DNA of 64,000 bases from NCBI GenBank assembly GCA_002086835.1, contig MVIG01000011.1:124001-188000 (forward strand), in the 5' to 3' direction. Position 1 is the stretch's first letter. Each line of letters begins with the position of its first letter. Made by a program: the position numbers and the translations under genes. Below the pieces are notes generated by a model, which was not told the origin of the DNA, searched no databases, and saw only the letters and a list, made by a program, of their open reading frames with translations. Shown here piece by piece: positions 37,204 through 54,689 of this stretch. This DNA is from Mycolicibacterium porcinum. Lineage in GTDB: Bacteria; Actinomycetota; Actinomycetes; Mycobacteriales; Mycobacteriaceae.

Positions 37204-38429
37204 CGCTCGTCGGCACCCGTTGCGACGGTGCCTGATTCGGTCAGCGCCGCGATCTCGTCGGCACCGAGCCCAAGGTGTTCGGCCAGCACGGCGGTGGTGT
37301 CGTCGCCGAGGGCGGGCGCGGGGACCGCGGGCGGATACACCCCGCCGATCGCCACCGGCAGGCCGGGCGCCAGGTAGGTGCCGACGCGGGGTTGTTCCAG
37401 CGGCGTGAACAGCGGATTGGCGACCACCCGCTCGTTGACCGCGACCTCGGCGAAGCTGCGGTACCGCTCCCAGAGCACCGAGGTTCCCGACAGTGCCGCG
37501 CTGATCTCGTCGGCGGTGTGCTCGCTGAACCACAGGGTGAACAATCCGGTGAGGGCGTCGCGGTGGGTGTAGCGCTGGCCTTCGTCGGTGAAGTCGGCAC
37601 CGAATGCCTCGGCAAGGGCGGCAACGGCTTTGGTGGTCCCGGTGACTTCGGTGAGATCCCGGAAGTGCCTGCCGGTCAGCGCCACGAGCATGAACCCGAC
37701 GCCGTCGCTGCTGGTGAAGTTCTGCCCGTAGGTACCGTACAAGGTGTTCCCGAGTCGTTCGCGGCTGGTGCCGTTGATCATCACCTCGGTCAGGAATCCC
37801 AGATTGCCCGCGGTGGCCAGCGCGACGTTCTCCAACGGGATGCTGATCCGGGCACCCTCACCGGTGGCGTCACGGTGTCGCAGTGCGGCGCTGACCGCCA
37901 GCGCCACGTACAGCCCGCAGCTGACATCCCAGGCCGGAAGCACATGGTTGACCGGAGTGGCCAACTGCGCGGGCCCGGTGACCATCGGGAAGCCGAGCCC
38001 GGCGTTGACCGTGTAATCCACGCCGGTGCCGCCGTCCGCGCGCCCCGACACCTCGACGTGAATGAGGTCCGGACGCAGAGCGGACAGAACATCGTACGAA
38101 TGCCATTGCCGTCCAGCTACATTGGTGATGAGAACCCCGGCTTCGGCGATCAACCGTTGCACCAGCTGCTGCCCGTCAGGCGAGCGCATGTCGGCGGCCA
38201 GTGAACGCTTGCCCTTGTTCAGCCCGGCCCAGTAGATGCTGTCGCCGCCGTCGGTGAGCGGCCAGCGGTGATAGTCGGCAGCGCCGCCGATGGGGTCCAC
38301 CCGCACCACCTCGGCACCCAGCTGAGCGAGCGTCATGCCGGCCAGCGGCACGGCGACGAAACTGGAGATCTCGACGATCCGCACCCCGGAAAGCGGGCGG
38401 GTCGGGTCCGGCGTTACAGAATCGGCCAT
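37200..38429 (-). CDS. Class III CoA transferase (CaiB/Frc family)
   Basis: A 409-residue CoA transferase. The N-terminus (LSGVRIVEISSFVAVPLAGMTLAQLGAEVVRVDP) is the family hallmark, and D168 in LPAWDVSCG sits where the catalytic aspartate of formyl-CoA transferase lies. These enzymes move CoA between organic acids. With a glutaryl-CoA dehydrogenase-like gene in the same operon, a dicarboxylate such as glutarate is a plausible acceptor (inference). ATG 38429 is chosen over TTG 38438. It follows the E1 gene by 10 bases. Confidence 0.9.
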   Translation of the reverse strand: MADSVTPDPTRPLSGVRIVEISSFVAVPLAGMTLAQLGAEVVRVDPIGGAADYHRWPLTDGGDSIYWAGLNKGKRSLAADMRSPDGQQLVQRLIAEAGVLITNVAGRQWHSYDVLSALRPDLIHVEVSGRADGGTGVDYTVNAGLGFPMVTGPAQLATPVNHVLPAWDVSCGLYVALAVSAALRHRDATGEGARISIPLENVALATAGNLGFLTEVMINGTSRERLGNTLYGTYGQNFTSSDGVGFMLVALTGRHFRDLTEVTGTTKAVAALAEAFGADFTDEGQRYTHRDALTGLFTLWFSEHTADEISAALSGTSVLWERYRSFAEVAVNERVVANPLFTPLEQPRVGTYLAPGLPVAIGGVYPPAVPAPALGDDTTAVLAEHLGLGADEIAALTESGTVATGADER

Positions 38430-38439
38430 GCCAGTCAAG

Positions 38440-40652: not shown

Positions 40653-41852
40653 TCAGCGGAACGCCGGAATTCCGGTGAGCGCCTGCCCGATGATCAGACT
40701 ATGCATTTCGCTGGTGCCTTCGTAGGTCAACACCGATTCCAGGTTGTTGGCGTGGCGCATCACCGGATATTCGGCGGTGATACCGCTGGCGCCCAGGATG
40801 GTGCGCGCGGTGCGGGCGATTTCCAAGGCTTCCCGGACATTGTTGAGCTTGCCGAGGCTGACCTGATCCGGAACCAGATCGCCGGTGTCCTTGCGCCTGC
40901 CGAGGTGCAGTGCGAGCAACAGGCCCTTTCCGTACTCCAGTGTCATGTCGGCCAGCTTCTGCTGGGTGAGCTGGAAGCCGCCGATCGGCCGGCCGAACTG
41001 TTCACGTGACCGCGCATACTCCAGTGCGGTCTGTAGGCAGTCCCGTGCCGCACCCAAGGCACCGAACACGATGCCGAATCGCGCTTCGTTCAGGCAGCGC
41101 AGCGGAGCCCCGAGACTGGTCGCGCCGGGTAGCCGTGCGCTGTCGGGCAGCCGGACACCGTCGAGTACCAACTCACTGGTCACCGACGCGCGCAGCGACA
41201 TCTTCGACTTGATCGTGTTGGCGGTGAAACCCGTTGTGTCCGTGGGCACGACGAAGCCGCGGACGCCCTCGTCGGTGCGCGCCCAGATGACGGCCAGATC
41301 GGCCACCGATCCGTTGGTGATCCACATCTTGGTGCCGGTCAACACCCAGTCACCGCCGGACCGGATGGCCCGAGTCCGCATCCCGGCCGGGTTTGACCCG
41401 TGGTCGGGTTCGGTGAGGCCGAAGCACCCGATGGTGCGGCCGGCGGCCATCTCCGGAAGCCAACGCTGCTTCTGCTCCTCGCTGCCGAATGCGTGGATGG
41501 CGAACATGGCCAGCGATCCCTGCACGCTGACCAGCGACCGGATCCCGGAGTCACCGGCTTCCAGCTCCAGACAGGCCAACCCGTAGGCCACCGCGCTGGT
41601 GCCCGCGCATCCGTAGCCCTGCAAGTGCATGCCGAGCAGCCCGAGTTCGCCGAGCTCACCGGCCAATTCCCGGGCCGGGAGTTCGCCGCTCTCATACCAA
41701 CTCGCGATGTGCGGGCTGATACTCCGCTGGACGACCGACCGCACGGTGTCGCGGATTTCGCGTTCTTCGGCCGAGAGCAGGGCATCGACGCCGAACATCG
41801 CGTCGGCGCCGACGATTCCGGAACTGTGTAGGGCCACAGCAGCTTCAACCAT
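40653..41852 (-). CDS. Acyl-CoA dehydrogenase, glutaryl-CoA dehydrogenase-like
   Basis: A 399-residue flavoprotein. FAD/substrate motifs are GCFGLTEPDHGSNP near residue 142 and TGTKMWITNG near 172. The catalytic base is E378 in TYEGTSEMH, and the SVQGSLAM stretch near 108 as well as the C-terminal LIIGQALTG resemble glutaryl-CoA dehydrogenase, which oxidises and decarboxylates glutaryl-CoA to crotonyl-CoA. A substituted glutaryl-CoA or another acyl-CoA is equally possible. It lies 27 bases after the enamidase-like gene and 50 before the E1 gene, in the GntR-linked operon. Confidence 0.88.
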   Translation of the reverse strand: MVEAAVALHSSGIVGADAMFGVDALLSAEEREIRDTVRSVVQRSISPHIASWYESGELPARELAGELGELGLLGMHLQGYGCAGTSAVAYGLACLELEAGDSGIRSLVSVQGSLAMFAIHAFGSEEQKQRWLPEMAAGRTIGCFGLTEPDHGSNPAGMRTRAIRSGGDWVLTGTKMWITNGSVADLAVIWARTDEGVRGFVVPTDTTGFTANTIKSKMSLRASVTSELVLDGVRLPDSARLPGATSLGAPLRCLNEARFGIVFGALGAARDCLQTALEYARSREQFGRPIGGFQLTQQKLADMTLEYGKGLLLALHLGRRKDTGDLVPDQVSLGKLNNVREALEIARTARTILGASGITAEYPVMRHANNLESVLTYEGTSEMHSLIIGQALTGIPAFR

Positions 41853-41879: not shown

Positions 41880-43100
41880 TCAGCAGCACCCGGTGCGGCG
41901 CGCCGTGGATTGTGCGGCCGGCGCGGGCTGGCCGCGCCACTTGACCGCGCGGCTGGGAGGCGGGGTCTGTTCACTGCGTGTCGTCACCAGCGGTACACCG
42001 TCGACCAGTACCGTCGCGATGCCCGGCAGGTCCCCGACGGCAAAGCACTCCAGGGCGTCGTCGGCGGTCGATCCGGTGACCGGTCCGAGGACCAGCAGGT
42101 CGGCGGGGCGCCCTTCCGCGAGCACCCCGGTGTGCAAGCCGTGCGCCCGCGCGGTCTGGCCGGTGGCCGCCGCAACCGCGCGAAGCGGGTCGACGCCGCA
42201 GATCGAGGCCAGAAAGCAGATGTTGCGCAGCATTCCCCGCGGGATCACGCCGGTGCCGCCGGGAGTGTCGGTGCCGAGTGTGAGCCTGCCGAGTTCATCG
42301 CGCGCGGACAGTTCGTCGACGACCAGTTTGGTCGCGCGGTAGTTCATGGAACTGCACACCTCGACGTGGGCCGAGGGCAGGTCGGCGATGATCGCCACGA
42401 TGTCCTCGTCAGGTGGTGGGATCGGACCACCCGAGATATGACCGACGATGTCCGGTCTGACCGCCGCCACGACGTCACGCCCGGCGACCCGGCTCGACCC
42501 GGACCGCGACACCCCGCCTGAGTGCATCTTGACGGTCATGCCGCGTTCGTGAGCCCATCGGACGTAGCGCTGCGCTTCCCCGTCCCCCAGGCGGTTCCAG
42601 TCGTAGAAGATGAACTTGAGATGCTCGATGCCTTCGTGGCGCGCCCGGTCGAAGTGCTCCTCGGTCATGCCCGGAACGAGTAGCACCGTGCCCGCGTTGA
42701 CCTTCACGCCCGAAGGGCGCGCACGCCCGGTGGTGTGCTTGGACGTGATCGCGATGCTCAGTACGAGTTCCGGGGTCAGCGCACCGAAATCCAAGCCGGG
42801 AATGTGCAGTTCGCCCGCAGACACCATCGAGGTGGTCCCGCCCTGCAGGTAGTTGCCGATCCAGCCGATCGAGTTCTGCGCGGGCGTCCACTCGCCGAAC
42901 GTCGGATGCACGTGCCCGTCGACGAGTCCGGGCATGACGGTCAAGCCGCCGGCGGACAGCACGTGGTCGGGATCGTGGTGGTCCACCCCGATGCCTGCGA
43001 CGCATCCGTCCTCGATCAGCAGTGTGGTGTCACGCAGGGGTGGCGACGACGCATCGCCGGACACCAGCAGTCCGATGTCCTCCACGAGCAGTGTGGTCAC
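41880..43100 (-). CDS. Enamidase-like metal-dependent amidohydrolase
   Basis: A 406-residue amidohydrolase-superfamily enzyme. Metal-site features are GLVDGHVHPTFGE near residue 52-64, MTVKMHSGG near 187, VGHISGG near 213 and GTDTPGG near 270. Overall resemblance (TSMVSAGELHIPG, FIFYDWNRLGDGEAQ) is to enamidase of anaerobic nicotinate degradation, which opens a reduced pyridone ring. GTG 43100 is preceded by GGGAGG; GTG 43112 is also in frame. The tail (PAPAAQSTARRTGCC) is unusual. It is the first gene of a five-gene operon and has a GntR-type operator 21 bases upstream. Confidence 0.83.
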   Translation of the reverse strand: MTTLLVEDIGLLVSGDASSPPLRDTTLLIEDGCVAGIGVDHHDPDHVLSAGGLTVMPGLVDGHVHPTFGEWTPAQNSIGWIGNYLQGGTTSMVSAGELHIPGLDFGALTPELVLSIAITSKHTTGRARPSGVKVNAGTVLLVPGMTEEHFDRARHEGIEHLKFIFYDWNRLGDGEAQRYVRWAHERGMTVKMHSGGVSRSGSSRVAGRDVVAAVRPDIVGHISGGPIPPPDEDIVAIIADLPSAHVEVCSSMNYRATKLVVDELSARDELGRLTLGTDTPGGTGVIPRGMLRNICFLASICGVDPLRAVAAATGQTARAHGLHTGVLAEGRPADLLVLGPVTGSTADDALECFAVGDLPGIATVLVDGVPLVTTRSEQTPPPSRAVKWRGQPAPAAQSTARRTGCC

Positions 43101-43121
43101 AGATCCTCCCACCGTTGGATT

Positions 43122-43138
43122 TTGTATACACTATCCGA
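43122..43138. promoter_or_regulatory. GntR operator, copy 1 (amidohydrolase operon)
   Basis: TTGTATA-CAC-TATCCGA, a variant of the motif TTGGATA-N3-TATCCAA found at three other starts in this region. It lies 21 bases upstream of the GTG of the enamidase-like gene. The right arm reads TATCCGA as in an imperfect palindrome; the left arm differs from the 52797 copy at one base. Confidence 0.7.
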
Positions 43139-43210
43139 TGTTGTCCAATGGGCATAGCGCAACCGACGGCGACACGGTTGCGGCGCCCGCCGATGCAGCC
43201 CTGTAGGTAT

Positions 43211-44236
43211 TCACCGCTGCCGCAACCACATCGGTGCCGCCAACGGCGCGACGAACACGATCAGCACCACGATCAACGCCCCGGCGAAATTCATCGCCAG
43301 CCGCACGGCGCCCTCGTACCAGGGAAACAACCCCGGGTATTCACTGATCACCAGCAGCACGGGAGGTCCGGTGATCGCCCACCACGTGTAGTTGACGGGC
43401 CGCAGCGCCATCGCGAGCAGGAACAGCACCACGGTCAGTCCGATCACCACAGGCGCCGGTGGATGTGCCCCCAGCAGGGCCGCGGCGATCACCGCACCGA
43501 CCGCGTTACCCGAAAGCCGCTGGGCCAAGCGCTGACCGGTCCGGGACCGGGTCGGCTGAATGGTCAGCAGCACGCTGGTGACCAACCAATGGCCGCCCAC
43601 CATGCCGGCGGGCAGCAGCGTCGCCGTCAGCACGGCCAGGCCTACAGCGACCCCTACCCGAACCGCATGAGCCGCCCCGGCCGGGGCACTCGACGAGGTC
43701 GGTTCATCCTCGCCACGGTGCCGCAGCCGGGATACCGCGAACCACACCGCCCATCCCGCGAACACGATGAGGATGCCGACGAGGTACGGCCACAGCGCCG
43801 CCGGACCCGTGGTGCCGCGATCCAGGTCGATCGATATCAGGACCACCGCCAGGCCCGCCGTCGCACCGACCGCCGGCACGAGTGCGCCCGCGATCGACGC
43901 CGCCACGGTGAGCGTCGCGAGTGCCACGGCGTTGTGCATGCCGGCAACGAGCGCTCCGGCGACCATCACCGTCACGGCCCGCACCGCCATGGTGTGCACG
44001 GCCGGGCGCCAGGCGGTGGGGATCTCGGGAACGGCGGTCAGCACGAAGCCCAGTCCGATCGCCGACCCCCATTCGGGTCGGCCCGACAACGCTGTGCCAC
44101 ACAGGATCACGCCCAGTCCGACGGCCAGCGCCGCACCCATCCCCCACCTGCTGCGGCCGACGGGACGCAGCAGCTCCGGAGTGCGGACCCGGGCGCCGTT
44201 CACAGGGCTGTCGGCAGGCCCCGCGCGCGGCGACAT
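43211..44236 (-). CDS. FUSC/aromatic acid exporter-like membrane protein
   Basis: A 341-residue membrane protein with about ten helices in two groups separated by a hydrophilic stretch (SRLRHRGEDEPTSSSAPAG, near residue 195). The second half contains LLTIQPTRSRTGQRLAQRLSGNAVGAVIAAAL, the FUSC-family signature seen in aromatic acid efflux proteins. It probably exports an intermediate or inhibitor (inference). ATG 44236 shares one base with the stop of the iron-sulfur subunit gene (TGATG). It is the last gene of the transporter-hydroxylase operon, 110 bases before the next operon's start. Confidence 0.78.
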   Translation of the reverse strand: MSPRAGPADSPVNGARVRTPELLRPVGRSRWGMGAALAVGLGVILCGTALSGRPEWGSAIGLGFVLTAVPEIPTAWRPAVHTMAVRAVTVMVAGALVAGMHNAVALATLTVAASIAGALVPAVGATAGLAVVLISIDLDRGTTGPAALWPYLVGILIVFAGWAVWFAVSRLRHRGEDEPTSSSAPAGAAHAVRVGVAVGLAVLTATLLPAGMVGGHWLVTSVLLTIQPTRSRTGQRLAQRLSGNAVGAVIAAALLGAHPPAPVVIGLTVVLFLLAMALRPVNYTWWAITGPPVLLVISEYPGLFPWYEGAVRLAMNFAGALIVVLIVFVAPLAAPMWLRQR

Positions 44237-44757
44237 CACCCGGATTCGCCGGCGGCGTCCAGCACCGCCTGCACAATGCCCTGGTAGCCGGTGCACCGGC
44301 AGATATTGCCCGACAATGCCTCTCGCACCGAAGCCTCGGTCAGCGGCTTCTCGGTGTCGGGATCACGCAGCAGCTCGACGGCAGTGACGAGGAATCCCGG
44401 GGTGCAGAACCCGCACTGCAGACCCCCGCGCTCGGAAAACGCCTCACGCAGCCTTCTGGTCTCCTCGAACTCCTCGAGACCCTCGACCGTGGTCACCCGC
44501 ATCCCGTCGATCTGCACCGCCAGCATGAGGCAGGTGCGCACGCTGCGACCATCGAGGAACACCGAACAAGCGCCACATACCCCGTGCTCGCAACCCAGAT
44601 GTGTTCCGGTCAAGCCCAGTTCGTCCCGCAGAAAATCGGCCAGCGTCAATCGCGGCGGCACCGTGCGCTGTATCAACCTGCCGTTGACGACGGCGGATAT
44701 CGGCACACTCGCCGGCGGTTGCGCCACATCGGTAGCCGGCGCCTCAATCGCCCGCAT
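44236..44757 (-). CDS. Molybdenum hydroxylase, 2Fe-2S small subunit
   Basis: A 173-residue iron-sulfur subunit of the xanthine dehydrogenase/CO dehydrogenase type. The plant-type cluster motif is GCEHGVCGACSV near residues 54-65 with a further cysteine in RTCLML; the second cluster uses CGFCTPGF near 113 and NICRCTGYQGI near 150. It carries electrons from the molybdenum centre to FAD. It overlaps the FAD subunit gene by 14 bases. Confidence 0.95.
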   Translation of the reverse strand: MRAIEAPATDVAQPPASVPISAVVNGRLIQRTVPPRLTLADFLRDELGLTGTHLGCEHGVCGACSVFLDGRSVRTCLMLAVQIDGMRVTTVEGLEEFEETRRLREAFSERGGLQCGFCTPGFLVTAVELLRDPDTEKPLTEASVREALSGNICRCTGYQGIVQAVLDAAGESG

Positions 44758-45625
44758 GGACGGCCTCCTGCCCCTGTTCGATGCGTCGTTGCGCTTCGGT
44801 CAACGCTTGAGCCAAAGCCTCGGCGCACAACCGCCGCGAGTAGTCGGGATCGTCGGAGGATGGTTCGGCGGTGTCGGCCCAGTGCTGTGCCAGGCCTCGC
44901 CACAACTGCTCCGAGGGGCGTTCACCGACCACCTCGTCGCCGGTGAACAACAGTGGCCGGTCCGCGGCGCTGAGGGCGCCGGCCCGCAACGACGCGATCC
45001 GGCCGGCGCTGTCGACACTCAGCAGGCAACCGGCACCGGCCAGCCCGTAATCACCATGCTGCCGGGCATATTCGACGAATCCCCAGCCCTGATCGCGTCC
45101 GATGGCGGGGATCGACACCCACGTGAGCATCTCGTCCGGTTCGAGCGCGTTCGTGTAGAACGACACGAACATGTCCTCGGCTGCGACATCGCGACGGCCG
45201 CCGCTCGCGGATTCGGTGTGAAATGTCGCGCCGAGTACCAAGGTGGCCAACGGCATTTCAGCCGCCGGATCGGCGTGAGCCACCGATCCCCCGAGAGTTC
45301 CTCGGTTACGAATCCCGATGTGTCCGATGTGGCCGGCCGCGGTGGCCAGCAGCGGCACGCGAGCGCCGATCAACGGATCGACCTCGACGGTGCGATGAGT
45401 CACCAAGGCGCCGAGGATCAGGTCGTCGGTGTCGTCGAAAACCCGCCGGAGTTCGTCGAGGCGGCCCATGTCGATGATCACGCTCGGTCGCGCCAACCGA
45501 AGGTTCATCAGCGCCATCAAGGACTGTCCGCCGGCCATCAGTTTGGCGTCTGGATAACGCGCCAACTGTTCGAGGGCCTCGCCGACCGAATCCGGGCGGA
45601 GGTAGTGAAAGGGCGCCGGCTTCAC
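44744..45625 (-). CDS. Molybdenum hydroxylase, FAD-binding medium subunit
   Basis: A 293-residue FAD subunit (CoxM/XdhB type). Signatures are FHYLRPDSVGEAL at the start, the FAD motif AGGQSLMALMNLRLARP near residues 32-48 and NRGTLGGSVAHADPAAEMP near 107-125. The ATG overlaps the large-subunit stop (ATGA). It forms the electron exit of the heterotrimer. Confidence 0.95.
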   Translation of the reverse strand: MKPAPFHYLRPDSVGEALEQLARYPDAKLMAGGQSLMALMNLRLARPSVIIDMGRLDELRRVFDDTDDLILGALVTHRTVEVDPLIGARVPLLATAAGHIGHIGIRNRGTLGGSVAHADPAAEMPLATLVLGATFHTESASGGRRDVAAEDMFVSFYTNALEPDEMLTWVSIPAIGRDQGWGFVEYARQHGDYGLAGAGCLLSVDSAGRIASLRAGALSAADRPLLFTGDEVVGERPSEQLWRGLAQHWADTAEPSSDDPDYSRRLCAEALAQALTEAQRRIEQGQEAVHAGD

Positions 45626-47955
45626 GATGCCCGCCGGTCAAGCGCGCCAAGCACGTGCGCCGTGGAGATCGGGGTGCTGTCGACGTGGATCCGATGTCCG
45701 AGCGCGTCGTCGACGGCCCCGGCGAGCACGGCGTACACGGCGATGGTTCCGCTCTCGCCCGCCCCGCGAACTCCGAGCGGGTTCGCCGGGGTGTCAGCAT
45801 GCAGATGCCGTACTCGCACCATCGGCATGTCCGTTGTCAGCGGCAGGTGATAGGCGGCAAACGTGGTCGATTGCGGCTGACCGGTTTCCGAGTACTTCCA
45901 TTGCTCGAAAAGCGCCCCGCCGACTCCCTGGGCAACACCACCGATGATCTGTCCTTCGACGATTCTCGGATTGATCTCGCGACCGCCTTCGTGCGACACC
46001 GCATAACGCAGCACCTTGACGATTCCGGTTCGCCGATGCACCCCCACGATCGCAGCGTGCACACCCATCGTCCAGGTCACTGTCGAAACCCGATGTACCG
46101 CAGTGGCATCGAGCGCACCGCTGCTCTCCTGCTCGCCGCCCACCGCGGTGGCCCGGGCGAGTTCGGCCCAGTCGATCGACCAGTCTTCGGCGACGTGAAA
46201 CCGCCCGCCGACGTATTGGACGTCGCCGCGTTGTGCGTTCGACAGGGCTGCCACCCGCTCGCCGGCCAGCTCGATCAGCGTGACTGCGGCTTTGTGCACA
46301 GCGGAGCCGGCCAAAATCGCCGACCGGCTGGCGAAGGTACCGACGCCGTCGGGCAGGCGCTCGGTGTCCGACGGCACATACCGGACCCGGTCGAACGGCA
46401 CCGCCAACGCCTCGGCGGCAACCTGCGCGAACACCGTCTCGTGCCCCTGACCGGCCGACGCCGCTCCAGCGGTGACCTCGAATTCACCGTTGGGCAGCAG
46501 GCGTATCCGGGCGGTCTCGTGCGGGCCACGGCCGGTGGCCTCCAGATAGGACGACACCCCATAACCGATGTGGTACTGCGGGAACTCGGCTGCGCAAGCG
46601 GCCAATTCGTCCCGCGGCAGCGCGTCGAGCACCGAATCGAGACAGGCCCGATAGTCGCGCCCGTCGTACTTGATCGGGACCCCGTCACGGTACGGAATCG
46701 GCCGGGGGTACGGCATGTCCGCATGGGTCAGGAGGTTGCGCCGCCGGATCTCGTCGGTGCTCAGACCGATCTCGCGGGCCGCGGCGTCGAGGCTGCGTTC
46801 CAGGGCGAACGTCGCCTCGGGCCGGCCGGCACCGCGATACTGGGCGACCAACGTCTTGTTGGTCAGCGCCGCGCGACCGGAGATCTGTGCGGCCGGTATC
46901 CGATACGGGCCGAGGAGGTGGATCGCCGTGTTGGCGATGATGCCGGCCACCCAGAGGCTTCCGGCCCCGACGTCGACGACGAAATCGTCCTCCCAGGCCA
47001 GGATGTGGCCGTCGCGGTCGACCGCGAGCCTGGTGCGGTGCACCTGATCGCGGCCCTGCGCGCTGGCCAGCAGATGTTCCTGGCGATCCTCGATCCAGAT
47101 CACCCGATGGCCGGTGTGCCGGACCAGCAATGCCAGCAGGATCTCTTCGCCGTAAACGTTGGCCTTCGTACCGAAGCCACCGCCCACGTCGGGAACCGCG
47201 ACCTTGACATCCTGGCGCGACCAGCCGGTCACCGCGCAGATCGCGTTGCGCACCATGTGCGGAACCTGAGTCGAGGTGGTCACCTCCACCCGCTGCCGCC
47301 GAGAGTCGAACTGCGCCAGCACGCCCCGGCATTCCAGTGGGACCGCCCCGTGCCGGTTCATCCGGTAGGTGCCACTGACCACCGTTGCGGCCGAGGCGAA
47401 CTCGCGTTCGACGTCGCCGAACGAATAGCGCAACCGCGCGGCCTCATTGCTGTCGAGGTGTTCGAACAGCGGCGGGCACCCCTCGTCGAGCGCACTGAAC
47501 GGATCGGTCACCGCCGGCAGCGGCTCATAATCGACCTCGATGGCCTCCAGCGCGTCCTCGGCCCGATAGCGATCTTCGGCGACCACCATCGCGACCGGCT
47601 GTCCGGCATAGTGCACGCGGTCATGGGCCAGGATCGGCAGCCGCTGCTCGGCCAACACACATGACGTGGCTTCGGCGAAGCCCGGATCGGGAGTGGTCAG
47701 TGACGGGATCGGGACATCACACAGACCAAGGTCGCCGGCGACGTAGACACCGATCACGCCGGGCATCTGCTCGGCCGCCGACGCGTCGAACCGGATGATC
47801 CTCGCGTGCGGTTGAGCCGAGCGCAGGAACACGACGTGGTGTGCACCCGCTGCGCAGTCGGCCACGAACTGACCGTGGCCGCCGAGCAGGCGCTCGTCTT
47901 CGCGACGCCGGACCGAGCTACCGATGTGACCCTGCGCCGATGAGTTCGCGGTCAA
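45622..47955 (-). CDS. Molybdenum hydroxylase, large (molybdopterin) subunit, CoxL form II-like
   Basis: The roughly 777-residue catalytic subunit of a xanthine dehydrogenase-family enzyme. Typical parts are GSSVRRREDERLLGGHGQFV at the start, VAVPDVGGGFGTKANVYGEE, the active-site loop QYRGAGRPEA (form II CoxL-like, not the AYRCSFR of true CO dehydrogenase), and the catalytic glutamate E734 in GVRGAGESG. These enzymes hydroxylate carbons in N-heterocycles or aldehydes using water. TTG 47955 overlaps the permease stop by 4 bases with GGGAG upstream; GTG 47973 is an alternative. No XdhC/CoxD maturation gene is nearby. Confidence 0.93.
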   Translation of the reverse strand: MTANSSAQGHIGSSVRRREDERLLGGHGQFVADCAAGAHHVVFLRSAQPHARIIRFDASAAEQMPGVIGVYVAGDLGLCDVPIPSLTTPDPGFAEATSCVLAEQRLPILAHDRVHYAGQPVAMVVAEDRYRAEDALEAIEVDYEPLPAVTDPFSALDEGCPPLFEHLDSNEAARLRYSFGDVEREFASAATVVSGTYRMNRHGAVPLECRGVLAQFDSRRQRVEVTTSTQVPHMVRNAICAVTGWSRQDVKVAVPDVGGGFGTKANVYGEEILLALLVRHTGHRVIWIEDRQEHLLASAQGRDQVHRTRLAVDRDGHILAWEDDFVVDVGAGSLWVAGIIANTAIHLLGPYRIPAAQISGRAALTNKTLVAQYRGAGRPEATFALERSLDAAAREIGLSTDEIRRRNLLTHADMPYPRPIPYRDGVPIKYDGRDYRACLDSVLDALPRDELAACAAEFPQYHIGYGVSSYLEATGRGPHETARIRLLPNGEFEVTAGAASAGQGHETVFAQVAAEALAVPFDRVRYVPSDTERLPDGVGTFASRSAILAGSAVHKAAVTLIELAGERVAALSNAQRGDVQYVGGRFHVAEDWSIDWAELARATAVGGEQESSGALDATAVHRVSTVTWTMGVHAAIVGVHRRTGIVKVLRYAVSHEGGREINPRIVEGQIIGGVAQGVGGALFEQWKYSETGQPQSTTFAAYHLPLTTDMPMVRVRHLHADTPANPLGVRGAGESGTIAVYAVLAGAVDDALGHRIHVDSTPISTAHVLGALDRRAS

Positions 47956-48752
47956 TGAAGTCGTTTCTCCCACTGCCAGAGCGCAATCGAGATTCCGAAC
48001 GAGATGGTGATCAGCAACATGATGGTGGCCACCATGGACGGGTAGTCGCCGTGACTGTAGGCCTGCAGAACCACGCGGCCGAGACCCCGCCTGGTCGCGA
48101 AGAACTCCGACAGCACCACGCCGACAACCGCGAGGCTCACCGCCAGCCGGATTCCGGTCAACAGCGGCCGCCGGATGGCCGGAATGATGATGTGTACCAG
48201 GGTCTGCCAGGCGTTGGCGCGCACCGACCGGGCCAGCTTCCAGTACACCCGCGGGATTTCCTGTACCCCGGTGGTCACGTTGATCAACACCGGGAACAGC
48301 GCGAACAGCACCCCCATCACGATCTTGGAGCCAGACAGACTGAAGATCGGCAGCAGTACCGGGTACAGCACGATCTTCGGAATTCCGTTCAGCACGATCA
48401 GCATCGGCTCGAACATCACGCGCAACCGCTGGGACAAGCCGAGCACCAGCCCCAGCGCCCCACCGACTGCCGTGCCGATCACGAACGCCAGGAACACCGA
48501 CTGTGCTGTGACCTGCAGATCGAACAGATACCCGGGATCGGCGAGGTTGTGGACGAGTACCCGGAAGGTCTCGACCGGCGACGGAATCACGAACGTCAGG
48601 GCCGAGAAGATCTCCCAGACGACGACCACCAGGAGTGCCAGCAGGGTGGCTCCGACGGCCTGGTTGCCGAGGATGGCGCGGAGGCGCTGCGGCGTGGTTC
48701 GCGGCGCGGGGGCCGCGGGGTGTCCGGCAGGTGGCTGCAGGGTCGAGGTCAT
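47952..48752 (-). CDS. ABC transporter permease (SsuC/TauC type) 2
   Basis: A 266-residue permease of the NitT/TauT family with six membrane helices and the EAA-type loop WKLARSVRANAWQTLVHIIIPAIRRPLLTG near residues 165-195. ATG 48752 overlaps the previous permease's stop by 4 bases. Two different permeases in one operon suggest a heterodimeric importer. Confidence 0.92.
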   Translation of the reverse strand: MTSTLQPPAGHPAAPAPRTTPQRLRAILGNQAVGATLLALLVVVVWEIFSALTFVIPSPVETFRVLVHNLADPGYLFDLQVTAQSVFLAFVIGTAVGGALGLVLGLSQRLRVMFEPMLIVLNGIPKIVLYPVLLPIFSLSGSKIVMGVLFALFPVLINVTTGVQEIPRVYWKLARSVRANAWQTLVHIIIPAIRRPLLTGIRLAVSLAVVGVVLSEFFATRRGLGRVVLQAYSHGDYPSMVATIMLLITISFGISIALWQWEKRLH

Positions 48753-49600
48753 CGGTTCCTCCCGCGCAGCAGAATGCGTTCCACGCCTGCCAGCAACGCG
48801 GTGAGGATGCAGGACAGCACCAGCACAACCGCGATGTAGGCGAACATCTCGTTGTTGTTGAAAATCTCGTAGAGGTACCGGATCCGGTAGCCCAGACCGG
48901 CCTGCGCAGTGGTGAACTCCATCGCGATGGTTCCGATCAGCGCGTAGACCACCGCCAGGCGCAGGCCCGCCACGATGTATGGTCCGGCCGCAGGGATGGC
49001 GATCGCGAAAAGGGTCTGCCGGGGCGAGGCCTTCAGCGAGCGGGCCAGTTTCATGTACACCGGCGGCATGGTGTTGAGCCCGACCGCCGTGTTCAGCGCC
49101 ATCGGGATGGCCGCCATGATCGTGGCCAGGATGATCACCGACGTCGCGTTGATCCCGACGATCACGATCATCACCGGATAGAACAGCACGAGCGGCACCG
49201 CGTAGAACGACACCAGATACGGCTCGAAGATGCGTCCGACGGCAGGCAGCTTCCAGAAGGTCAGGCCGGCCGCGAAACCCAGCAGACTGCCGAACAGGAT
49301 CGAGAACGCCACCTCGATACCCGTGCGGGCCGCGTCGTTCCAGAACTGTCCTTCGCCGAGGAGGCGACCGAGCTCGGAGAGGATCACCGAGGGCGCGGGC
49401 AGAATGCGGTCGCTCCACAGCCCGGTCCGGGCGCCCAACTCGGCGAACAGCAAGAAGCCGATGATGAGCGCGAGCGTCGAGAGCATGCTGATCACCGAGT
49501 TGCCCACCCGCATCTTGCGCCGCTCCGGCTCCGGACGTCCCGCGTGGGTACTCATGTCCTCGGTGGGCAGGTCATCCTGTGCGACATATGACGTCGTCAC
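48749..49600 (-). CDS. ABC transporter permease (SsuC/TauC type) 1
   Basis: A 283-residue inner-membrane permease of the NitT/TauT family, with six helices after a hydrophilic N-terminus of about 35 residues and the EAA-type loop [30 protein letters not shown] near residue 185. GTG 49600 overlaps the ATPase stop (GTGA); an internal ATG ([13 protein letters not shown]) is possible. It likely pairs with the following permease. Confidence 0.9.
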
Positions 49601-50406
49601 GTAGCCACCTTCTTCTGGGCTTCCTGCTGTCTGAATCCGCGCATGGATTCGGCTTGCAGTGACGTCCAGATCCGGTTCTGGAGTTCGTTGAATCGCGGGG
49701 TGGAGACCATGCCCGCGTCGCGCTCGGCGGGCAGGTCGATGTCGACGACATCGATGATCGATCCGGGCCGGTACGACATCACCCAAACCTGTTGGGAGAG
49801 CAGAATCGCCTCGGAAATGTCATGGGTGACGAACACGATCGTCTGTTTGGTTCTCGCCCAGATCTGCCGAACCTCGGCACCGAGAAACAACCGGGTCTGC
49901 TGGTCGAGGGCGGCGAACGGCTCGTCCATCAGCACCACTTCCGGCTGCACCGCCAAGGTCCGCGCGAGGGCGACCCGCTGCCGCATGCCACCGGAAAGCA
50001 TGGAGGGATAAGATTTTTCGAAGCCGCCGAGCCCGACCAGTTCGATAGCCTCTTTCGCCCGCCGACGGCGCTCGGCCTTGTCGGTGCCGATCATCTCCAT
50101 CGCGAACGCCACGTTTTCCTCGACCGTCCGCCACGGCAGCGTCGAATCTTCCTGAAACACCACACCGATGGACGGGTCGGGGCCGGTGACGGGCCTTCCG
50201 CCGACGCGCACCAGCCCGGTTGACGACTCCTGCAGACCGGAGATCACGGCCAGCAGGGTCGACTTTCCGCATCCGCTCGGTCCGACGATGGACACGAAAC
50301 TGGCATGCGGTACGTGCTGTTTGATGTCGGTTACCGCTGTCACCTTGCCGGCCGGGGTGTCGAAGACCACGGAGACGTTGTCGATCCGGATACCGTCACG
50401 ATCCAT
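49597..50406 (-). CDS. ABC transporter ATP-binding protein (SsuB/TauB type)
   Basis: A 269-residue ATPase with Walker [10 protein letters not shown] near residue 42, signature LSGGMRQR near 140 and Walker [13 protein letters not shown] near 160. The aromatic-rich end and the DISEAILLS stretch are typical of the nitrate/sulfonate/taurine importer group. It follows the binding-protein gene by 35 bases. Confidence 0.94.
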
Positions 50407-50441
50407 TGGTACGCCTTTCGGAGGTACTGACCCTGGTCAGC

Positions 50442-51425
50442 TCAGATGTCGGTCTGCGCGTCATCGGGCAGGTACTGCTGATCAAGCGTTGCGGCCCAAT
50501 CGATCTGCTCCGGAATCTGCCCGGCGCCGACCATCAGCTCGGAGAGGTTCTTCAGCCCGTCCGCATCGACTTTCAGCGAGTAACCCTTGGCCAGATCGGG
50601 ATTGCTGGCGAACGCTGCCGTCATCACTTCGGGCGACACTCCGACCAGGGGGGCGATCTCTTTGGCCGCCTCACCGGGGTTGGCGACCAGCCAGTCGTTC
50701 AGTCGATCGGCGACGGTGAAGAACGCGCGCACATTGTCGGGATTCTGTTGGGCGTATTCGGCATTCACCGCCACCAGATCGGCGGGCAGGTCGCCCACCA
50801 CGTCCCTGGAATCGACCAGCACCTCGGCATGATCGGAAGCCTGCTTGTCGGCGATGAACGGCTGCATGGCCCAACCCGCGGTGATCTGACCGGCCTTGGC
50901 AGCGGTCCAGTTGTCGCCCATCGGTCCCACCGCCTGCGACTTGACCCCGAGCTTGCGTTCGAGGCCTTTGACGATCAGCTCGGTGGACGAGCCCGCCGAG
51001 CTGAACCCGAGGGTGGCGTTCTCCAGTTTCCGCCCCGGTGGCGCGATCCACGAGAAGTCGTTGACCTGGAACCAGGGCGCAACCACCTTGAGGTTCGAAT
51101 TCGGTTGCCGCGCCGCGAGAATCACCGAACTGTTGCCGGCGATCGCCATGTCCGCGTCACCGCTGGTGACCACACGCAGAGTGTTGCCGCCACCGCCACC
51201 GGAATACAGATCGACGTTGACTCCCTGTTCCTTGAACCAGCCCTTGTCGATTCCGACCTGCAGTATCGCCATGAACGGCAGACTGTCGACGCCGGTCGCC
51301 GAGATGCTCAGCGTGTCCGCGCCGCCACTCTCCGGGCCTGTCGATTCGTCGGCACAAGCTGTTACTGCCGCGACGAGTGCCACCGCGGTACCCGCCGCGG
51401 CGAACACTTTACGAAACCAGGCCAT
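50442..51425 (-). CDS. ABC transporter substrate-binding lipoprotein (NitT/TauT family)
   Basis: A 327-residue binding protein with a lipoprotein signal (cysteine at about residue 24, VTACADES) and the SsuA/TauA/NMT1 fold: SLPFMAILQVGIDKGWFKEQGVNVDL near residue 45 and GDADMAIAGNSSVILAARQ near 88. The family imports sulfonates, nitrate, pyrimidine precursors and aromatic acids, so the ligand is open. It opens the eight-gene operon that continues through the importer and molybdenum hydroxylase to the FUSC gene. A promoter and a GntR-type operator lie just upstream. Confidence 0.92.
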   Translation of the reverse strand: MAWFRKVFAAAGTAVALVAAVTACADESTGPESGGADTLSISATGVDSLPFMAILQVGIDKGWFKEQGVNVDLYSGGGGGNTLRVVTSGDADMAIAGNSSVILAARQPNSNLKVVAPWFQVNDFSWIAPPGRKLENATLGFSSAGSSTELIVKGLERKLGVKSQAVGPMGDNWTAAKAGQITAGWAMQPFIADKQASDHAEVLVDSRDVVGDLPADLVAVNAEYAQQNPDNVRAFFTVADRLNDWLVANPGEAAKEIAPLVGVSPEVMTAAFASNPDLAKGYSLKVDADGLKNLSELMVGAGQIPEQIDWAATLDQQYLPDDAQTDI

Positions 51426-51455
51426 GGACGCAAACCTCCGAGAGCGGGTTGAATA

Positions 51456-51472
51456 TTGGATACACTATACGA
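51456..51472. promoter_or_regulatory. GntR operator, copy 2 (transporter-hydroxylase operon)
   Basis: TTGGATA-CAC-TATACGA, 30 bases upstream of the binding-protein ATG. It covers the -10 hexamer of the predicted promoter, which suits a repressor. Confidence 0.75.
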
Positions 51473-51492
51473 ATTGGTGTGATCTAGGTCAA
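51464..51492 (-). promoter_or_regulatory. Sigma-A type promoter of the transporter-hydroxylase operon
   Basis: On the minus strand TTGACC (51492-51487) is followed by a 17-base spacer and TATAGT (51469-51464), an excellent housekeeping promoter. Further GGTC(C)AA repeats at 51500, 51508 and 51520 give extra TTGACC-like boxes upstream. Confidence 0.7.
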
Positions 51493-51509
51493 CATTTTCG
51501 GTCAATAGG

Positions 51510-51788
51510 TCAACAGTTTGGTCCAATGCGGGAAGCACCGCCACCCGTCCACAGCCGGGACAGTTCCAGTCCTACCGCCACGCCGATCAGCGCCGCAGCC
51601 GTGGTGAACCGCGACCTCGGCGCAGCCGGTACTTGAACGGGTGGCGCGCAGGCGGCGGCCGACACCCCGGCTCCGACTGCCGTGATCGAAACGCCGTCAG
51701 CCGCAGTGAGATTCCGTTTCAGCGGTGGCGGGGCGCCCGGCCCCGCGCTACCCGGTGCCGGAAACCCCCCGACGGCACCCTCAGCCAC
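51510..51788 (-). CDS. Possible small membrane protein downstream of the LLM gene
   Basis: A 92-codon frame whose GTG overlaps the end of the LLM gene by 8 bases. The product is Ala/Pro/Gly-rich with one hydrophobic segment near residues 61-76 (FTTAAALIGVAVGLEL). That segment resembles the C-terminal anchor of the CoxG-like protein encoded nearby (LLTTAAGIALGLAIG). It has no ribosome site and runs into the promoter repeats. It may be a real small protein, a remnant of a CoxG-like gene, or chance. Confidence 0.3.
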   Translation of the reverse strand: MAEGAVGGFPAPGSAGPGAPPPLKRNLTAADGVSITAVGAGVSAAACAPPVQVPAAPRSRFTTAAALIGVAVGLELSRLWTGGGASRIGPNC

Positions 51789-52776
51789 GGCCGTCGACGA
51801 TGCGCGCGAAGGTACGGATGGTGGGCGCCCGGCTCTCCCCCGGTCGCACGAACGGCACGATCGACACCTGGTCGACGCCGAGCGATTCGATCTCCTTGAG
51901 ACGCTGCGCGCATTCATCGGGTGTCCCGGCGAGCGCAAACAGGTCCACCAGCTCGTCGGGCACCAGGTCGGCGTGCGAGGCCTCGGGATTCATGTGCTGG
52001 TAATAGTCGTAGGAGTCCCGGATCCGATCGATCACCTTCTCCAAAGCGGGCTCGACCTTGGCCGGGAGCGGCCTGATCGCCACGCGGGACACGTGCGCGC
52101 GCACCAGATCCCGCGCCTTGGTCCGATCTTCGTCGATGGCCGTCGGAGTCCAGAGCACCACATGGATGTCGTCGAGCGAACGGCCGCTCTCGGCCGCGCC
52201 GGCTTCGATCGTCTGCAGCGCCGCCTCGATGAAGTGCGGTGCGGTGCCGACCAGCACGATGACACCATCGGCGATGCGTCCCGACATCCGCAGGATCTTC
52301 GGGGCGGAGGCGGCGATGTAGATCGGAATGTCCATCGGGCCGTCGAGATAATTGAGGTGATACTCGGAGCCGCTGGTCGGCTCCGCCACCTTCTCGCCCC
52401 TGAACAGTGCTCTCAGTTCGCGTATCGACTCTTCGAGCTCAGCCAGCTTGAGCGGCTTGAGACCCATTGTCCGCAAAGACGAGTCGCCGGTGCCTATGCC
52501 GAGCGCCACCCGGCCACCGGTGTATTCGGCCAGGGTCGCCCAGGTGGACGCCAGCAGGGATTGATGCCGCGTCACCGCATTGGTGACGCCGGTGCCGAAG
52601 ATGATGCGTTCGGTTCCGACGGCCGCGGCGCCCATGACGGTGGAAGACTCCCGCCAGATGTTCTGCGAATCCCCGAACCAGACGTTGTCGTAACCGAGCG
52701 ACTCGCTCAACCGCACGTATTCACACATCGTGCCCACCGGTTCGGTCGGAAACAGACCGACTCCCTTACTCAGCAC
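51781..52776 (-). CDS. LLM-class flavin/F420 monooxygenase or reductase
   Basis: A 331-residue LLM-fold protein resembling the methylene-tetrahydromethanopterin reductase-like group: SKGVGLFPTEPVG at the start, YDNVWFGDSQN near residue 29, GTGVTNAVTRHQ near 62, GGRVALGIGTGDSS near 88. GTG 52776 is preceded by AGGAGG six bases away, which fixes the start; the open frame to 52854 is not used. A GntR-type operator lies 20 bases upstream, shared with the divergent CoxG-like gene. In this context a role in ring oxidation or opening, as for RutA in pyrimidine breakdown, is possible (inference). Confidence 0.87.
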   Translation of the reverse strand: MLSKGVGLFPTEPVGTMCEYVRLSESLGYDNVWFGDSQNIWRESSTVMGAAAVGTERIIFGTGVTNAVTRHQSLLASTWATLAEYTGGRVALGIGTGDSSLRTMGLKPLKLAELEESIRELRALFRGEKVAEPTSGSEYHLNYLDGPMDIPIYIAASAPKILRMSGRIADGVIVLVGTAPHFIEAALQTIEAGAAESGRSLDDIHVVLWTPTAIDEDRTKARDLVRAHVSRVAIRPLPAKVEPALEKVIDRIRDSYDYYQHMNPEASHADLVPDELVDLFALAGTPDECAQRLKEIESLGVDQVSIVPFVRPGESRAPTIRTFARIVDGRG

Positions 52777-52796
52777 TATCGACCTCCTGGGCGACG

Positions 52797-52813
52797 TTGG
52801 ATATCGTATCCAA
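52797..52813. promoter_or_regulatory. GntR operator, copy 3 (perfect palindrome, LLM/CoxG)
   Basis: TTGGATA-TCG-TATCCAA is a perfect 7+3+7 palindrome in the divergent region between the LLM and CoxG-like genes. It is the best copy of the motif in the window. Confidence 0.8.
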
Positions 52814-52874
52814 TCGTAGGGTGGGCCTTCGGGACGCACAACCGCAGCACGCAATCGAGGAAACGGAAACCGCC

Positions 52875-53468
52875 ATGCAGTTAGTCAACGAGTTCTCCGT
52901 CGATGCCCCGCTTGACATCGCCTGGGCGGCACTGACAGACGTGCCCCGTGTGGTCGAATGCATCCCTGGCGCAACGCTGGAAAGCCACGACGGCGACGAC
53001 TACCGCGCCAACGTCGCCATCAAGGTCGGCCCGGTCGGTCTCACCCTCGCCGGCACGGCGACCGTGATCCGTCGCGACGACAGCACGCATGAGATGGTGG
53101 TCCGCGGCCAGGCCAGCGACAGGAAAGGGAACGGCTCAGCACAGGCCACCGTCACCATGTCGGCCTGCGAGCGCGGCACCCACACCGAGGTCACGGTGCG
53201 TACCGATCTCGAACTGGATGGCCGTATCGCCCAGTTCGGCAGCGGCGTCATCTCTCAGGTCAGCAACCGCATCATCGGGCAGTTCGTGCGCAGGCTCAAC
53301 ACGATGATCGTGGGGGCCGACGGCATTCAGAGCGCTGCTGTCGAGGTGATCCCGGCGCCACGACAGCCGGAGTTCACCGAAACCGACTGGTGGTCAGTCC
53401 TGTTGACCACCGCGGCCGGGATCGCGCTGGGGCTTGCGATCGGACGCACCGCCGCCCGACGGGTCTGA
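52875..53468 (+). CDS. CoxG-like SRPBCC protein with C-terminal membrane anchor
   Basis: A 197-residue protein with an SRPBCC (START-like) domain at residues 1-150: MQLVNEFSVDAPLDIAWAALTDVPRVVECIPGA at the start is the CoxG signature. A membrane helix near residues 175-193 (LLTTAAGIALGLAIG) ends the protein. CoxG anchors CO dehydrogenase to the membrane in Oligotropha (now Afipia); here it probably docks the nearby molybdenum hydroxylase. ATG 52875 follows GAGGAAACGGAAA. It shares the perfect GntR palindrome with the divergent LLM gene. Its stop directly abuts the end of the broken Rid gene. Confidence 0.88.
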   Translation: MQLVNEFSVDAPLDIAWAALTDVPRVVECIPGATLESHDGDDYRANVAIKVGPVGLTLAGTATVIRRDDSTHEMVVRGQASDRKGNGSAQATVTMSACERGTHTEVTVRTDLELDGRIAQFGSGVISQVSNRIIGQFVRRLNTMIVGADGIQSAAVEVIPAPRQPEFTETDWWSVLLTTAAGIALGLAIGRTAARRV

Positions 53469-53929
53469 TCAGTCGCGCACCGCTGCGACGAGTTCGAGTT
53501 CCACGCACGCCCCACCAGGCAATGACGCCACCCCGATCGCCGTGCGGGCATGAGCCCCGCACTCCTCGCCGAATACCTCGAGCAACAACTCGGACGCCCC
53601 GTCGATCACCCCGGGTGGGAGTCGAAATCGGAAGTGGCGCGGACGTACCCACGCAGATGCACCAGTGCGGTGACCGAATCCAAGCCGACGGCGGCATCCA
53701 ACGCCGCCACGAGATTGAGGGCAGCCAGCCGCGCCTGGGCGGTTGCCTGCTCAGCGGTGACATCGGCGCCGACCACGCCCACTGCACTCGGATCGTCGGG
53801 ACGACGCGCCGTGGTTCCCGAAACCCACAGCTGGTCGCCATGCCTGCGGCTCGGAAAGTAGGCTCCCTTCGGCCGCGCCGGCGCCGGCAGCTCGATTCCC
53901 AACGAAGCCAAGCGTTCTCCGACCGTCAC
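53469..53929 (-). pseudogene. Rid-family (YjgF) enamine/imine deaminase, frameshifted
   Basis: The first 107 codons encode the N-terminal two thirds of a Rid protein (GAYFPSRRHGDQLWVSGTT...VTAEQATAQARLAALNLVAAL) and stop at 53606-53608. The rest continues in the -1 frame from GTG 53609 to the stop at 53469-53471: VIDGASELLLEVFGEE, then RTAIGVASLPGGACVELE with the conserved arginine. Adding one G to the GGGG run at 53609-53612 (minus strand) restores a 153-residue protein of normal length. The cause could be a true mutation, a sequencing slip in a homopolymer, or frameshifting. GTG 53929 overlaps the GntR stop, so it is the second gene of the GntR operon. Confidence 0.8.
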
Positions 53930-54651
53930 GCTCCCGGTTCCTGGTTGCCGAAGACGGTGTGCAGGTGGTCGATGGCATGACTGCGGTGCTGGTGGTTCAA
54001 CGCGACCACCCGATCGACATCGCGGGCCGCCATCGCATCGACCAGCAGCACGTGCTCACTGTTGACCTGGTCCAGATCCATCAGGTGGGCATACATCGGG
54101 CGGTAGGCGTCGGCGGTGTTCCACAGCTGGGTGACGATCCGCTTGGTGCGCGCCATCCGACTGGCCTCGAAGGTCAGGAAGTGAAACTGCCTGTTCGCCA
54201 ACCCCACCCCGATGAGATCAGCCTCGGCCGCGGCCCGGTCCATCGCGGCCATCTGCTCACGCATGGCATCGATGAGTTCGTCGGTGACCGCCGGCATCGC
54301 ATCACGAATGAGTTCGGCCTCGAGGATGTCGCGAATCCGGAACACCTCGACGAGCTCATCCAGCCCGAGTTGTGCGACGCGGTATCCGCTGTGCGGCACG
54401 TACGTGATGTATTCCTCGGCCTCAAGGGTTTTCAGCGCCTCGCGAACCGGAATCCGCGACATGCCGAACTGCTCGGCCAGGCTCTCCTGCACGATCCAGC
54501 TGCCGGGCGCGAGTTTGCCACTGGTGATGTCGCGTCGCAGCGCTTCGGCCACCGCCTGCTGGGCGGTTTTGGGCCGGACGAAATCCGACCGCGCTCCAGT
54601 TGCGGAGTCGGACGCGACGGCTGTACGTCGGGTGGCAGTTCGCGGTGGCAT
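53926..54651 (-). CDS. GntR family regulator with FCD domain
   Basis: A 241-residue regulator: winged helix at residues about 27-95 (TAQQAVAEALRRDITSGKL...SRIPVREALKTLEAEEYITYVPHSGYRVA) and an all-helical FCD ligand domain (VFRIRDILEAELIRDAMPAV, with the histidines of the metal-binding pocket toward the end). FCD regulators usually repress catabolic genes until a pathway acid binds. An operator copy sits 21 bases before its ATG. The same motif lies before three other transcription units here, so it is the likely master switch of the 36-55 kb cluster. Confidence 0.92.
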   Translation of the reverse strand: MPPRTATRRTAVASDSATGARSDFVRPKTAQQAVAEALRRDITSGKLAPGSWIVQESLAEQFGMSRIPVREALKTLEAEEYITYVPHSGYRVAQLGLDELVEVFRIRDILEAELIRDAMPAVTDELIDAMREQMAAMDRAAAEADLIGVGLANRQFHFLTFEASRMARTKRIVTQLWNTADAYRPMYAHLMDLDQVNSEHVLLVDAMAARDVDRVVALNHQHRSHAIDHLHTVFGNQEPGA

Positions 54652-54672
54652 CAGGTCTCGCTTTCGCTAATA

Positions 54673-54689
54673 TTGGATACTCTATGCGA
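54673..54689. promoter_or_regulatory. GntR operator, copy 4 (autoregulation)
   Basis: TTGGATA-CTC-TATGCGA, 21 bases upstream of the gntR start, nearly identical to the 51456 copy. Suggests autorepression. Confidence 0.75.

Follow-up and report, generated by a model that had tools for sequence, protein, structure and literature searches.

We analysed a stretch of 64,000 nucleotides (nt) from Mycolicibacterium porcinum (contig MVIG01000011.1, positions 124,001 to 188,000), referred to below as the window, and found that a GntR-type motif, TTGGATA-N3-TATCCAA, stands before a gntR gene and before the other transcription units of the catabolic cluster next to it. The encoded regulator, a GntR protein of the FCD type, very probably acts at all four of these sites. 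A first-pass annotation of the same DNA had proposed a self-contained GntR regulon, and that proposal is supported here by the near-exclusive occurrence of the motif, by the conservation of the promoters and by the co-occurrence of one 24-base-pair (bp) operator block with the regulator. For the model as a whole, in which this regulon serves to degrade picolinate or a close pyridine-2-carboxylate, we put the chances slightly above even. The function of the pathway, the overlap between sites and promoters and a third half-box behind two of the sites are additions to the earlier annotation.

Conservation and specificity of the operator sites

The four sites lie at 43122, 51456, 52797 and 54673, where the first-pass annotation had placed them. 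The arms of the site at 52797 match the motif perfectly, and those at 43122, 51456 and 54673 carry two mismatches each. Counted by hand, the distance from site to start codon is 21 nt for the enamidase-like gene, 30 nt for the solute-binding protein gene, 20 nt for the LLM-class gene and 21 nt for gntR, all within the spacing of 20-30 nt claimed earlier. A scan of the window allowing up to three mismatches returned five matches compared to 0.19 expected, and none of 100 shuffles reached five. The only match beyond the four sites was weaker (three mismatches) and overlapped the first of them, at 43115. With both strands of the window scored by a matrix built from three of the sites, the site left out ranked 4th, 4th, 4th and 5th. 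Apart from the four sites the highest scores, which were lower, fell at 43115 and 51449, two positions that overlap sites at a 7-bp shift. In these two site groups a third half-box is present as a 7-bp direct repeat; every aligned enamidase promoter (12 of 12) carries the AATCCAA box, and 15 of the 17 importer promoters carry one of TATTC type.

Orthologues of the GntR were found at 18 mycobacterial loci (L005-L022) and at two Sciscionella loci. Two distant matches in Clostridium (L025 and L026, 32-33%) had no such cluster in the stretches examined and were omitted from the promoter counts. In the best match, from Mycolicibacterium peregrinum (L005), the GntR is identical over 240 residues. 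The gene order (gntR, the divergent coxG-like gene, the LLM gene, the solute-binding protein, the ATPase, two permeases and the molybdenum (Mo) hydroxylase subunits) was kept in both Sciscionella loci and in 17 of the 18 mycobacterial ones, the exception being L020, where the LLM, binding protein and ATPase genes are missing from their places. Mean pairwise identity of the 17-mer, with both Sciscionella rows excluded and L035 not aligned, was 0.95 for gntR (19 sequences), 0.95 for the LLM gene (18), 0.87 for the importer (17) and 1.0 for the enamidase (12). Outside the 17-mers, the 20 upstream columns lying farthest away had an identity of 0.28-0.50 and the 25 nearest columns one of 0.40-0.60. 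The motif was the best-conserved part of the promoter at each site (12-19 sequences). All 12 aligned promoters, those of 11 relatives and of the window, share an identical 24-bp block ahead of the enamidase gene; a 12th mycobacterial relative, L035, is the only one without the block and carries a 17-mer with three mismatches, TCGTATA-CTG-GATCCAA, just ahead of its enamidase gene.

The motif is not common at unrelated promoters. In the M. porcinum genome (6.96 Mb in 102 contigs), with the reversed pattern as control, seven places matched with at most two mismatches and four of these are the cluster sites. At up to three mismatches there were 34 places compared to 30 for the reversed pattern, a frequency so similar that the remaining matches in this genome are background. 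One of the three places outside the cluster lies within a long open frame, another is close to the 3' end of an open frame whose composition looks coding, and the third belongs to a longer, different palindrome (TTGGACACATT...AATGTGTCCAA). We scanned likewise the genomes of 14 relatives chosen for carrying the GntR (14 of the 22 GntR loci), assigning matches to the cluster by contig and coordinate. With at most two mismatches there were 51 places, 40 in the orthologous cluster and 11 outside, and the reversed control also gave 11. Sites outside the cluster are therefore at background in the genome of M. porcinum and in the 14 relatives.

The enamidase block and the regulator also occur together across the genus. 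Among 198 congeneric genomes, 20 carried the GntR (called at E <=1e-70) and 13 carried the 24-bp block (at most two mismatches), and all 13 were among the 20. The block was thus present in 13 of the 20 GntR genomes and in 0 of the 178 others (Fisher p 1e-15, a value uncorrected for kinship, which overstates independence because the genomes are related). A long palindrome in the M. porcinum genome, TTGGACACATTTCGATAATGTGTCCAA (L056, contig C81, near 44081), stands immediately before an ATG and is probably the operator of another regulator.

Overlap of the operators with predicted promoters

The conserved boxes lie on or against predicted promoter elements. The predicted -10 of the importer promoter falls inside the upstream arm of the operator, and that of the LLM promoter abuts the operator, its last base being the first of the palindrome. 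TTGAC-N17-TATAGT was present in 13 of 17 aligned importer promoters and TTGAC-N17-TATGCT in two; L018 has TTGTC-N17-TATAGT, and L014 is without an N17 match. For the LLM gene, a TTGT-type element at N17 was found in 16 of 20 aligned promoters and at N18 in one (L018), and in none of L022-L024. The same position is occupied mostly by CATAGA/T-type hexamers in the gntR sites and by GATAGT in the enamidase sites. Only 6 of 21 gntR promoters have a TTGAC-type -35 at 17-18 nt, and no -35 was evident in the alignments of the enamidase promoters. Two loci, L017 and L019, retain TTGACG-N17-TATAGT but have a rearranged importer operator near 13220, TTGGATCCAATATCCAC, which forms a compact palindrome and contains a direct repeat.

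From the position, conservation and specificity of the sites we infer binding and, because the operators cover the -10 and start region, repression. That the GntR represses is likely, at a confidence a step below that for its acting at the sites. The alternative, an activator at the same sites, is improbable. It has a precedent in Ms0535, a mycobacterial FCD regulator that activates its own operon (PMC4609117), but the sites here coincide with the predicted -10 or follow it, so that a bound protein would block the polymerase. We think it very improbable indeed that the conserved boxes are merely strong promoter elements, a -10 and start region with no repressor operator. Hexamers resembling a -10 do lie within or against every site, as such an explanation would have it, but the arms reach past the -10 and are dyad-symmetric, L017 and L019 keep the -10 position though their arms are rearranged, and in 15 genomes the pattern is no more frequent than background once the cluster is set aside.

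The importer promoter may have a further input in addition to the GntR. A sequence at 51478-51492, TTGACCTAGATCACA, overlaps its -35, and 16 of the 17 aligned promoters contain either this sequence or a variant. It resembles the mycobacterial CRP consensus, which suggests a second, global input.

Gene content and predicted pathway

The first-pass annotation had put the regulon at about 17 genes, and a recount gave 17 (Table 1). The enamidase-like protein aligns with 2vun, an enamidase from Eubacterium barkeri, from residues 2-384 on 5-384 (280 bits), and both share HxH and DxPxGTG stretches, which bind metal or act in catalysis. The LLM-class protein had 10 matches in the PDB below E 1e-10, seven named F420 and three named methylene-H4MPT reductase, itself an F420 enzyme; against NCBIfam, all models were below their own cut-offs (best 25 of 27). 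The nearest PDB matches of the Mo hydroxylase large subunit are 6-hydroxypseudooxynicotine dehydrogenase and quinoline 2-oxidoreductase (460 and 400 bits), above CoxL (<=329 bits). CO oxidation, considered for the CoxG-like protein and the matches to CO dehydrogenase models, was dropped on that ranking. The 2-oxoacid dehydrogenase E1 is of the pyruvate/branched-chain type with fused subunits, and is the single E1 in the M. porcinum genome at E <=1e-60. The ridA-like frame, broken in the window, is uninterrupted in all eight mycobacterial loci read; the break is either an assembly error or a recent pseudogene. Of the 11 mycobacterial loci fetched, all have E1 downstream of the enamidase gene, 10 have glutaryl-CoA dehydrogenase there and 6 have the CoA-transferase and thioesterase. 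Searching plasmids with the enamidase yielded 25 records, and the matches listed (best 20 of 25) all had less than 60% identity.

Table 1. Operators, predicted promoters and genes of the cluster, in window coordinates
Feature	Position	Strand	Basis or sequence
Operator of gntR	54673..54689	-	TCGCATA-GAG-TATCCAA
gntR, 241 aa, GntR winged helix-turn-helix and FCD domain	53926..54651	-	Pfam PF00392 60 bits, PF07729 82 bits, both above cut-off
ridA-like gene, overlaps end of gntR	53469..53929	-	frame broken in window; family assigned by inspection of translation
CoxG-like protein, divergent from LLM gene	52875..53468	+	PF06240
Predicted LLM promoter	52813..52841	-	TTGTGC-N17-TACGAT
Perfect palindrome between divergent LLM and coxG-like genes	52797..52813	.	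TTGGATA-TCG-TATCCAA
LLM-class F420-type oxidoreductase, methylene-H4MPT reductase-like	51781..52776	-	profile and PDB matches
Predicted importer promoter	51464..51492	-	TTGACC-N17-TATAGT
Operator of importer-hydroxylase operon	51449..51472	-	TCGTATA-GTG-TATCCAA (51456-51472) and third half-box TATTCAA (51449-51455)
ABC solute-binding protein, NMT1/SsuA-like	50442..51425	-	family profiles
ABC ATPase	49597..50406	-	family profiles
ABC permease 1	48749..49600 (start approximate)	-	family profiles
ABC permease 2	47952..48758 (start approximate)	-	by inspection of translation; conserved L005-L024
Mo hydroxylase large subunit	45622..47925 (start approximate)	-	family profiles, PDB
Mo hydroxylase FAD subunit	44744..45625	-	family profiles
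Mo hydroxylase 2Fe-2S subunit	44236..44757	-	family profiles
FUSC/ArAE-like membrane protein	43211..44240 (start approximate)	-	family profile
Operator of enamidase operon	43115..43138	-	TCGGATA-GTG-TATACAA (43122-43138) and third half-box AATCCAA (43115-43121)
Enamidase-like amidohydrolase	41880..43100	-	2vun enamidase 280 bits
Glutaryl-CoA dehydrogenase	40653..41852	-	PDB 3sf6, 770 bits
Thiamine-dependent 2-oxoacid dehydrogenase E1, alpha and beta fused	38440..40602	-	PF00676, PF02779, PF02780
Family III CoA-transferase	37200..38438	-	family profiles
TesB-type thioesterase	36397..37206 (start approximate)	-	family profiles

The substrate of the E1 was approached through its neighbourhoods. 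E1 is present in 53 of 296 genomes of the class and in 28 of 114 genera. We read 31 loci with flanks of about 1.5 kb each (29 of the 30 returned, our own excluded, and two of Sciscionella). Glutaryl-CoA dehydrogenase was adjacent in 13, an aldehyde dehydrogenase, belonging to one BLAST cluster and of the aminoadipate-semialdehyde type or closest to it, in 17, and both in 12. Three of the 17 aldehyde dehydrogenases were scanned; for all three the best model was L-piperidine-6-carboxylate dehydrogenase, with that of L072/L099 at 792 bits, above the cut-off of 730. Of six wider neighbourhoods fetched, those of L099, L101 and L102 were read, and the proteins of two were scanned. In L102 there is an L-lysine 6-transaminase scoring 686 bits (cut-off 520.8), along with an Lrp-type regulator that stayed below its cut-off. 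By inspection, the genes accompanying E1 in Sciscionella encode an amino-acid permease and a protein resembling FAD amino-acid oxidases. One congener (L070 and L101:12080-16318) has no GntR match; there the E1 gene is followed by CoA-transferase and thioesterase genes, and the three stand together beside the HAD gene. Other genes, by inspection an aldehyde dehydrogenase and an aminotransferase, are also next to them. Lysine is converted through aminoadipate and 2-oxoadipate to glutaryl-CoA, and since the glutaryl-CoA dehydrogenase, aldehyde dehydrogenase and lysine transaminase neighbours of E1 match this route, E1 probably acts on 2-oxoadipate. That the pathway passes through 2-oxoadipate is, in our judgement, reasonably likely. 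From their grouping in L070 and L101, E1, CoA-transferase and thioesterase may move as a unit. Two of the actinomycete clusters, L102:5232-11576 and L099:10944-14433, place a fused alpha-beta E1 by a glutaryl-CoA dehydrogenase and an aldehyde dehydrogenase, and their E1 is likely a 2-oxoadipate dehydrogenase of unusual type.

From the gene families and neighbourhoods observed we infer the effector and the reaction steps as follows. The adjacent GntR would control its own gene and three further promoter regions, one of them common to the divergent pair, blocking RNA polymerase until a compound of the pathway binds the FCD domain. The substrate would be taken up by the ABC importer, and the Mo hydroxylase would convert picolinate to 6-hydroxypicolinate. 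The F420-type enzyme would then reduce the ring to 1,4,5,6-tetrahydro-6-oxopicolinate, and the enamidase would open it to 2-aminohexenedioate/2-iminoadipate. The RidA-like protein would aid hydrolysis of the imine to 2-oxoadipate and ammonia. E1, with E2 and E3 borrowed from a housekeeping complex, would form glutaryl-CoA, and glutaryl-CoA dehydrogenase would convert this to crotonyl-CoA. A pyridine-2-carboxylate would suit an enzyme set of Mo hydroxylase, reductase, enamidase and imine hydrolase with 2-oxoadipate as end product, and an E1 acting on 2-oxoadipate favours picolinate over nicotinate. We rate picolinate itself as having about an even chance of being the substrate. Isonicotinate, the first candidate in view of earlier work on mycobacteria, was rejected, as its ring opening would not yield 2-oxoadipate; no paper on its breakdown was found in the open-access literature.

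A number of findings weigh against this regulon and pathway model. Seven of the 20 GntR genomes had no 24-bp enamidase block at up to two mismatches. Sciscionella retains only the gntR site (two mismatches) and a weak LLM/coxG site (three), with no site at up to four mismatches at its importer and enamidase genes, and its cluster stops at the enamidase, with E1 and glutaryl-CoA dehydrogenase not in it. In the genome of L023 these two genes lie elsewhere on the same contig, and ridA was not seen in the L023 cluster where it was sought. Of the 11 mycobacterial relatives, L050 has no glutaryl-CoA dehydrogenase in place, and no E1 was detected in the genome of L022. The link of E1 to lysine-type partners is not universal, as 13 of the 31 E1 loci had neither partner within 1.5 kb, and the aldehyde dehydrogenases of L073 (308 bits) and L088/L102 (343 bits) scored far under the cut-off of 730. 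The CoA-transferase and thioesterase may belong with E1 for a reason that the model leaves unexplained. The top NCBIfam model of the Mo large subunit is the CO dehydrogenase group-5 model (599 bits, cut-off 950), and neither its PDB nor its NCBIfam matches name a substrate. Finally, the scan of the operon proteins revealed neither an E2 nor an E3.

Two other substrates could feed the same regulon, and we consider each of them unlikely. Nicotinate would be degraded by way of 6-hydroxynicotinate, tetrahydro-6-oxonicotinate, 2-formylglutarate and glutarate, the last being activated to glutaryl-CoA by the CoA-transferase, a route to which we give a similarly low probability. Among solved structures, 2vun alone is related to the enamidase over its full length, the CoA-transferase weakly matches succinate-glutarate CoA-transferase (122 bits, cut-off 750) and glutaryl-CoA dehydrogenase is compatible with this route. 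However, the route leaves E1 and the RidA-like protein idle, although E1 accompanies every one of the 11 mycobacterial enamidase loci and the CoA-transferase only six. The CoA-transferase also has a better match in 2-methylfumaryl-CoA isomerase (399 bits, cut-off 725), and the Mo large subunit is one chain, whereas that of the nicotinate dehydrogenase 3hrd is split and matches with only 124 and 97 bits. The substrate might instead be another compound that yields 2-oxoadipate, such as quinolinate, with loss of one carboxyl group, or a cyclic lysine derivative oxidised at C6. This is chemically allowed, and E1 is linked to lysine breakdown in some other genomes, but neither a lysine aminotransferase nor a piperidine-6-carboxylate dehydrogenase was among the operon proteins scanned, and Mo hydroxylases normally attack sp2 ring carbons.

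Two further gene groups in the window were recorded in passing. An ABC importer pair at 30306-32900 (binding protein and fused permease), resembling the 2-aminoethylphosphonate/molybdate type, lies outside the regulon. On the minus strand at 4509-9916, a copper amine oxidase, an amino acid permease and a glutathionylspermidine-synthase-like gene are clustered.

Comparison with known systems and implications

Like the FadR/FCD subfamily (PMC4494728), the regulator combines a winged helix-turn-helix with an FCD domain and has palindromic, AT-rich sites near catabolic operons, with an additional half-box by the palindrome and one site serving a divergent pair; in GntR-family sites, extra half-boxes are described 7-12 nt from the centre (PMC4494728). 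The FadR-subfamily consensus has TKGT/ACMA boxes in which GT and AC are separated by 2-3 nt; the sites depart from it in that the arms are TTGGAT/ATCCAA and stand 5 nt apart. This consensus is not exclusive, and members with other motifs are also on record (PMC4494728). Ms0535 of Mycobacterium smegmatis (PMC4609117) is likewise a mycobacterial FCD GntR with a palindrome before its own operon, but its motif is 26 bp long with a 4-nt spacer, and it activates a permease.

Among catabolic routes, the nicotinate pathway of Eubacterium barkeri and Azorhizobium (PMC9304392) shares with the predicted pathway a hydroxylation, a partial ring reduction and the hydrolytic opening of the ring by an enamidase. 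It differs in that its steps end in 2-formylglutarate, whereas the reductase candidate here is an F420-type LLM protein and the E1 and RidA-like protein point to 2-oxoadipate. The pic pathway of Alcaligenes faecalis (PMC10142695) is alike only in its first product, 6-hydroxypicolinate, made by the dehydrogenase PicA; a monooxygenase and then a decarboxylase lead on to 2,5-dihydroxypyridine, a dioxygenase follows, and its regulator, PicR, is a MarR protein, in contrast to the GntR here. No flavin or Rieske monooxygenase, decarboxylase or dioxygenase family was found among the cluster proteins scanned, the LLM protein apart.

Among the titles listed from the open-access literature, with several lists limited to 12-15 papers, we found no picolinate route through 2-oxoadipate, which is weak evidence of novelty, as most subscription papers lie outside that search. 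We tentatively propose that actinomycetes may possess a new aerobic, reductive picolinate pathway, in which an F420-dependent enzyme reduces the ring in part, an enamidase opens it, and 2-oxoadipate joins the lysine-type route by a fused E1 and glutaryl-CoA dehydrogenase. A single FCD regulator would govern the whole, through widely spaced operators embedded in the promoters. Apart from this unusual operator the regulatory system is ordinary, and the pathway, as predicted, is the more interesting part.

The cluster offers a clean mycobacterial regulon in which the regulator and its four sites are defined and a particular substrate is predicted, and the operator sites would be suited to an inducer biosensor. 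If the predicted pathway is correct, it would add an F420-using way of breaking the pyridine ring, and lysine breakdown in actinomycetes would gain a likely 2-oxoadipate dehydrogenase whose E1, in contrast to human DHTKD1, is an alpha-beta fusion.

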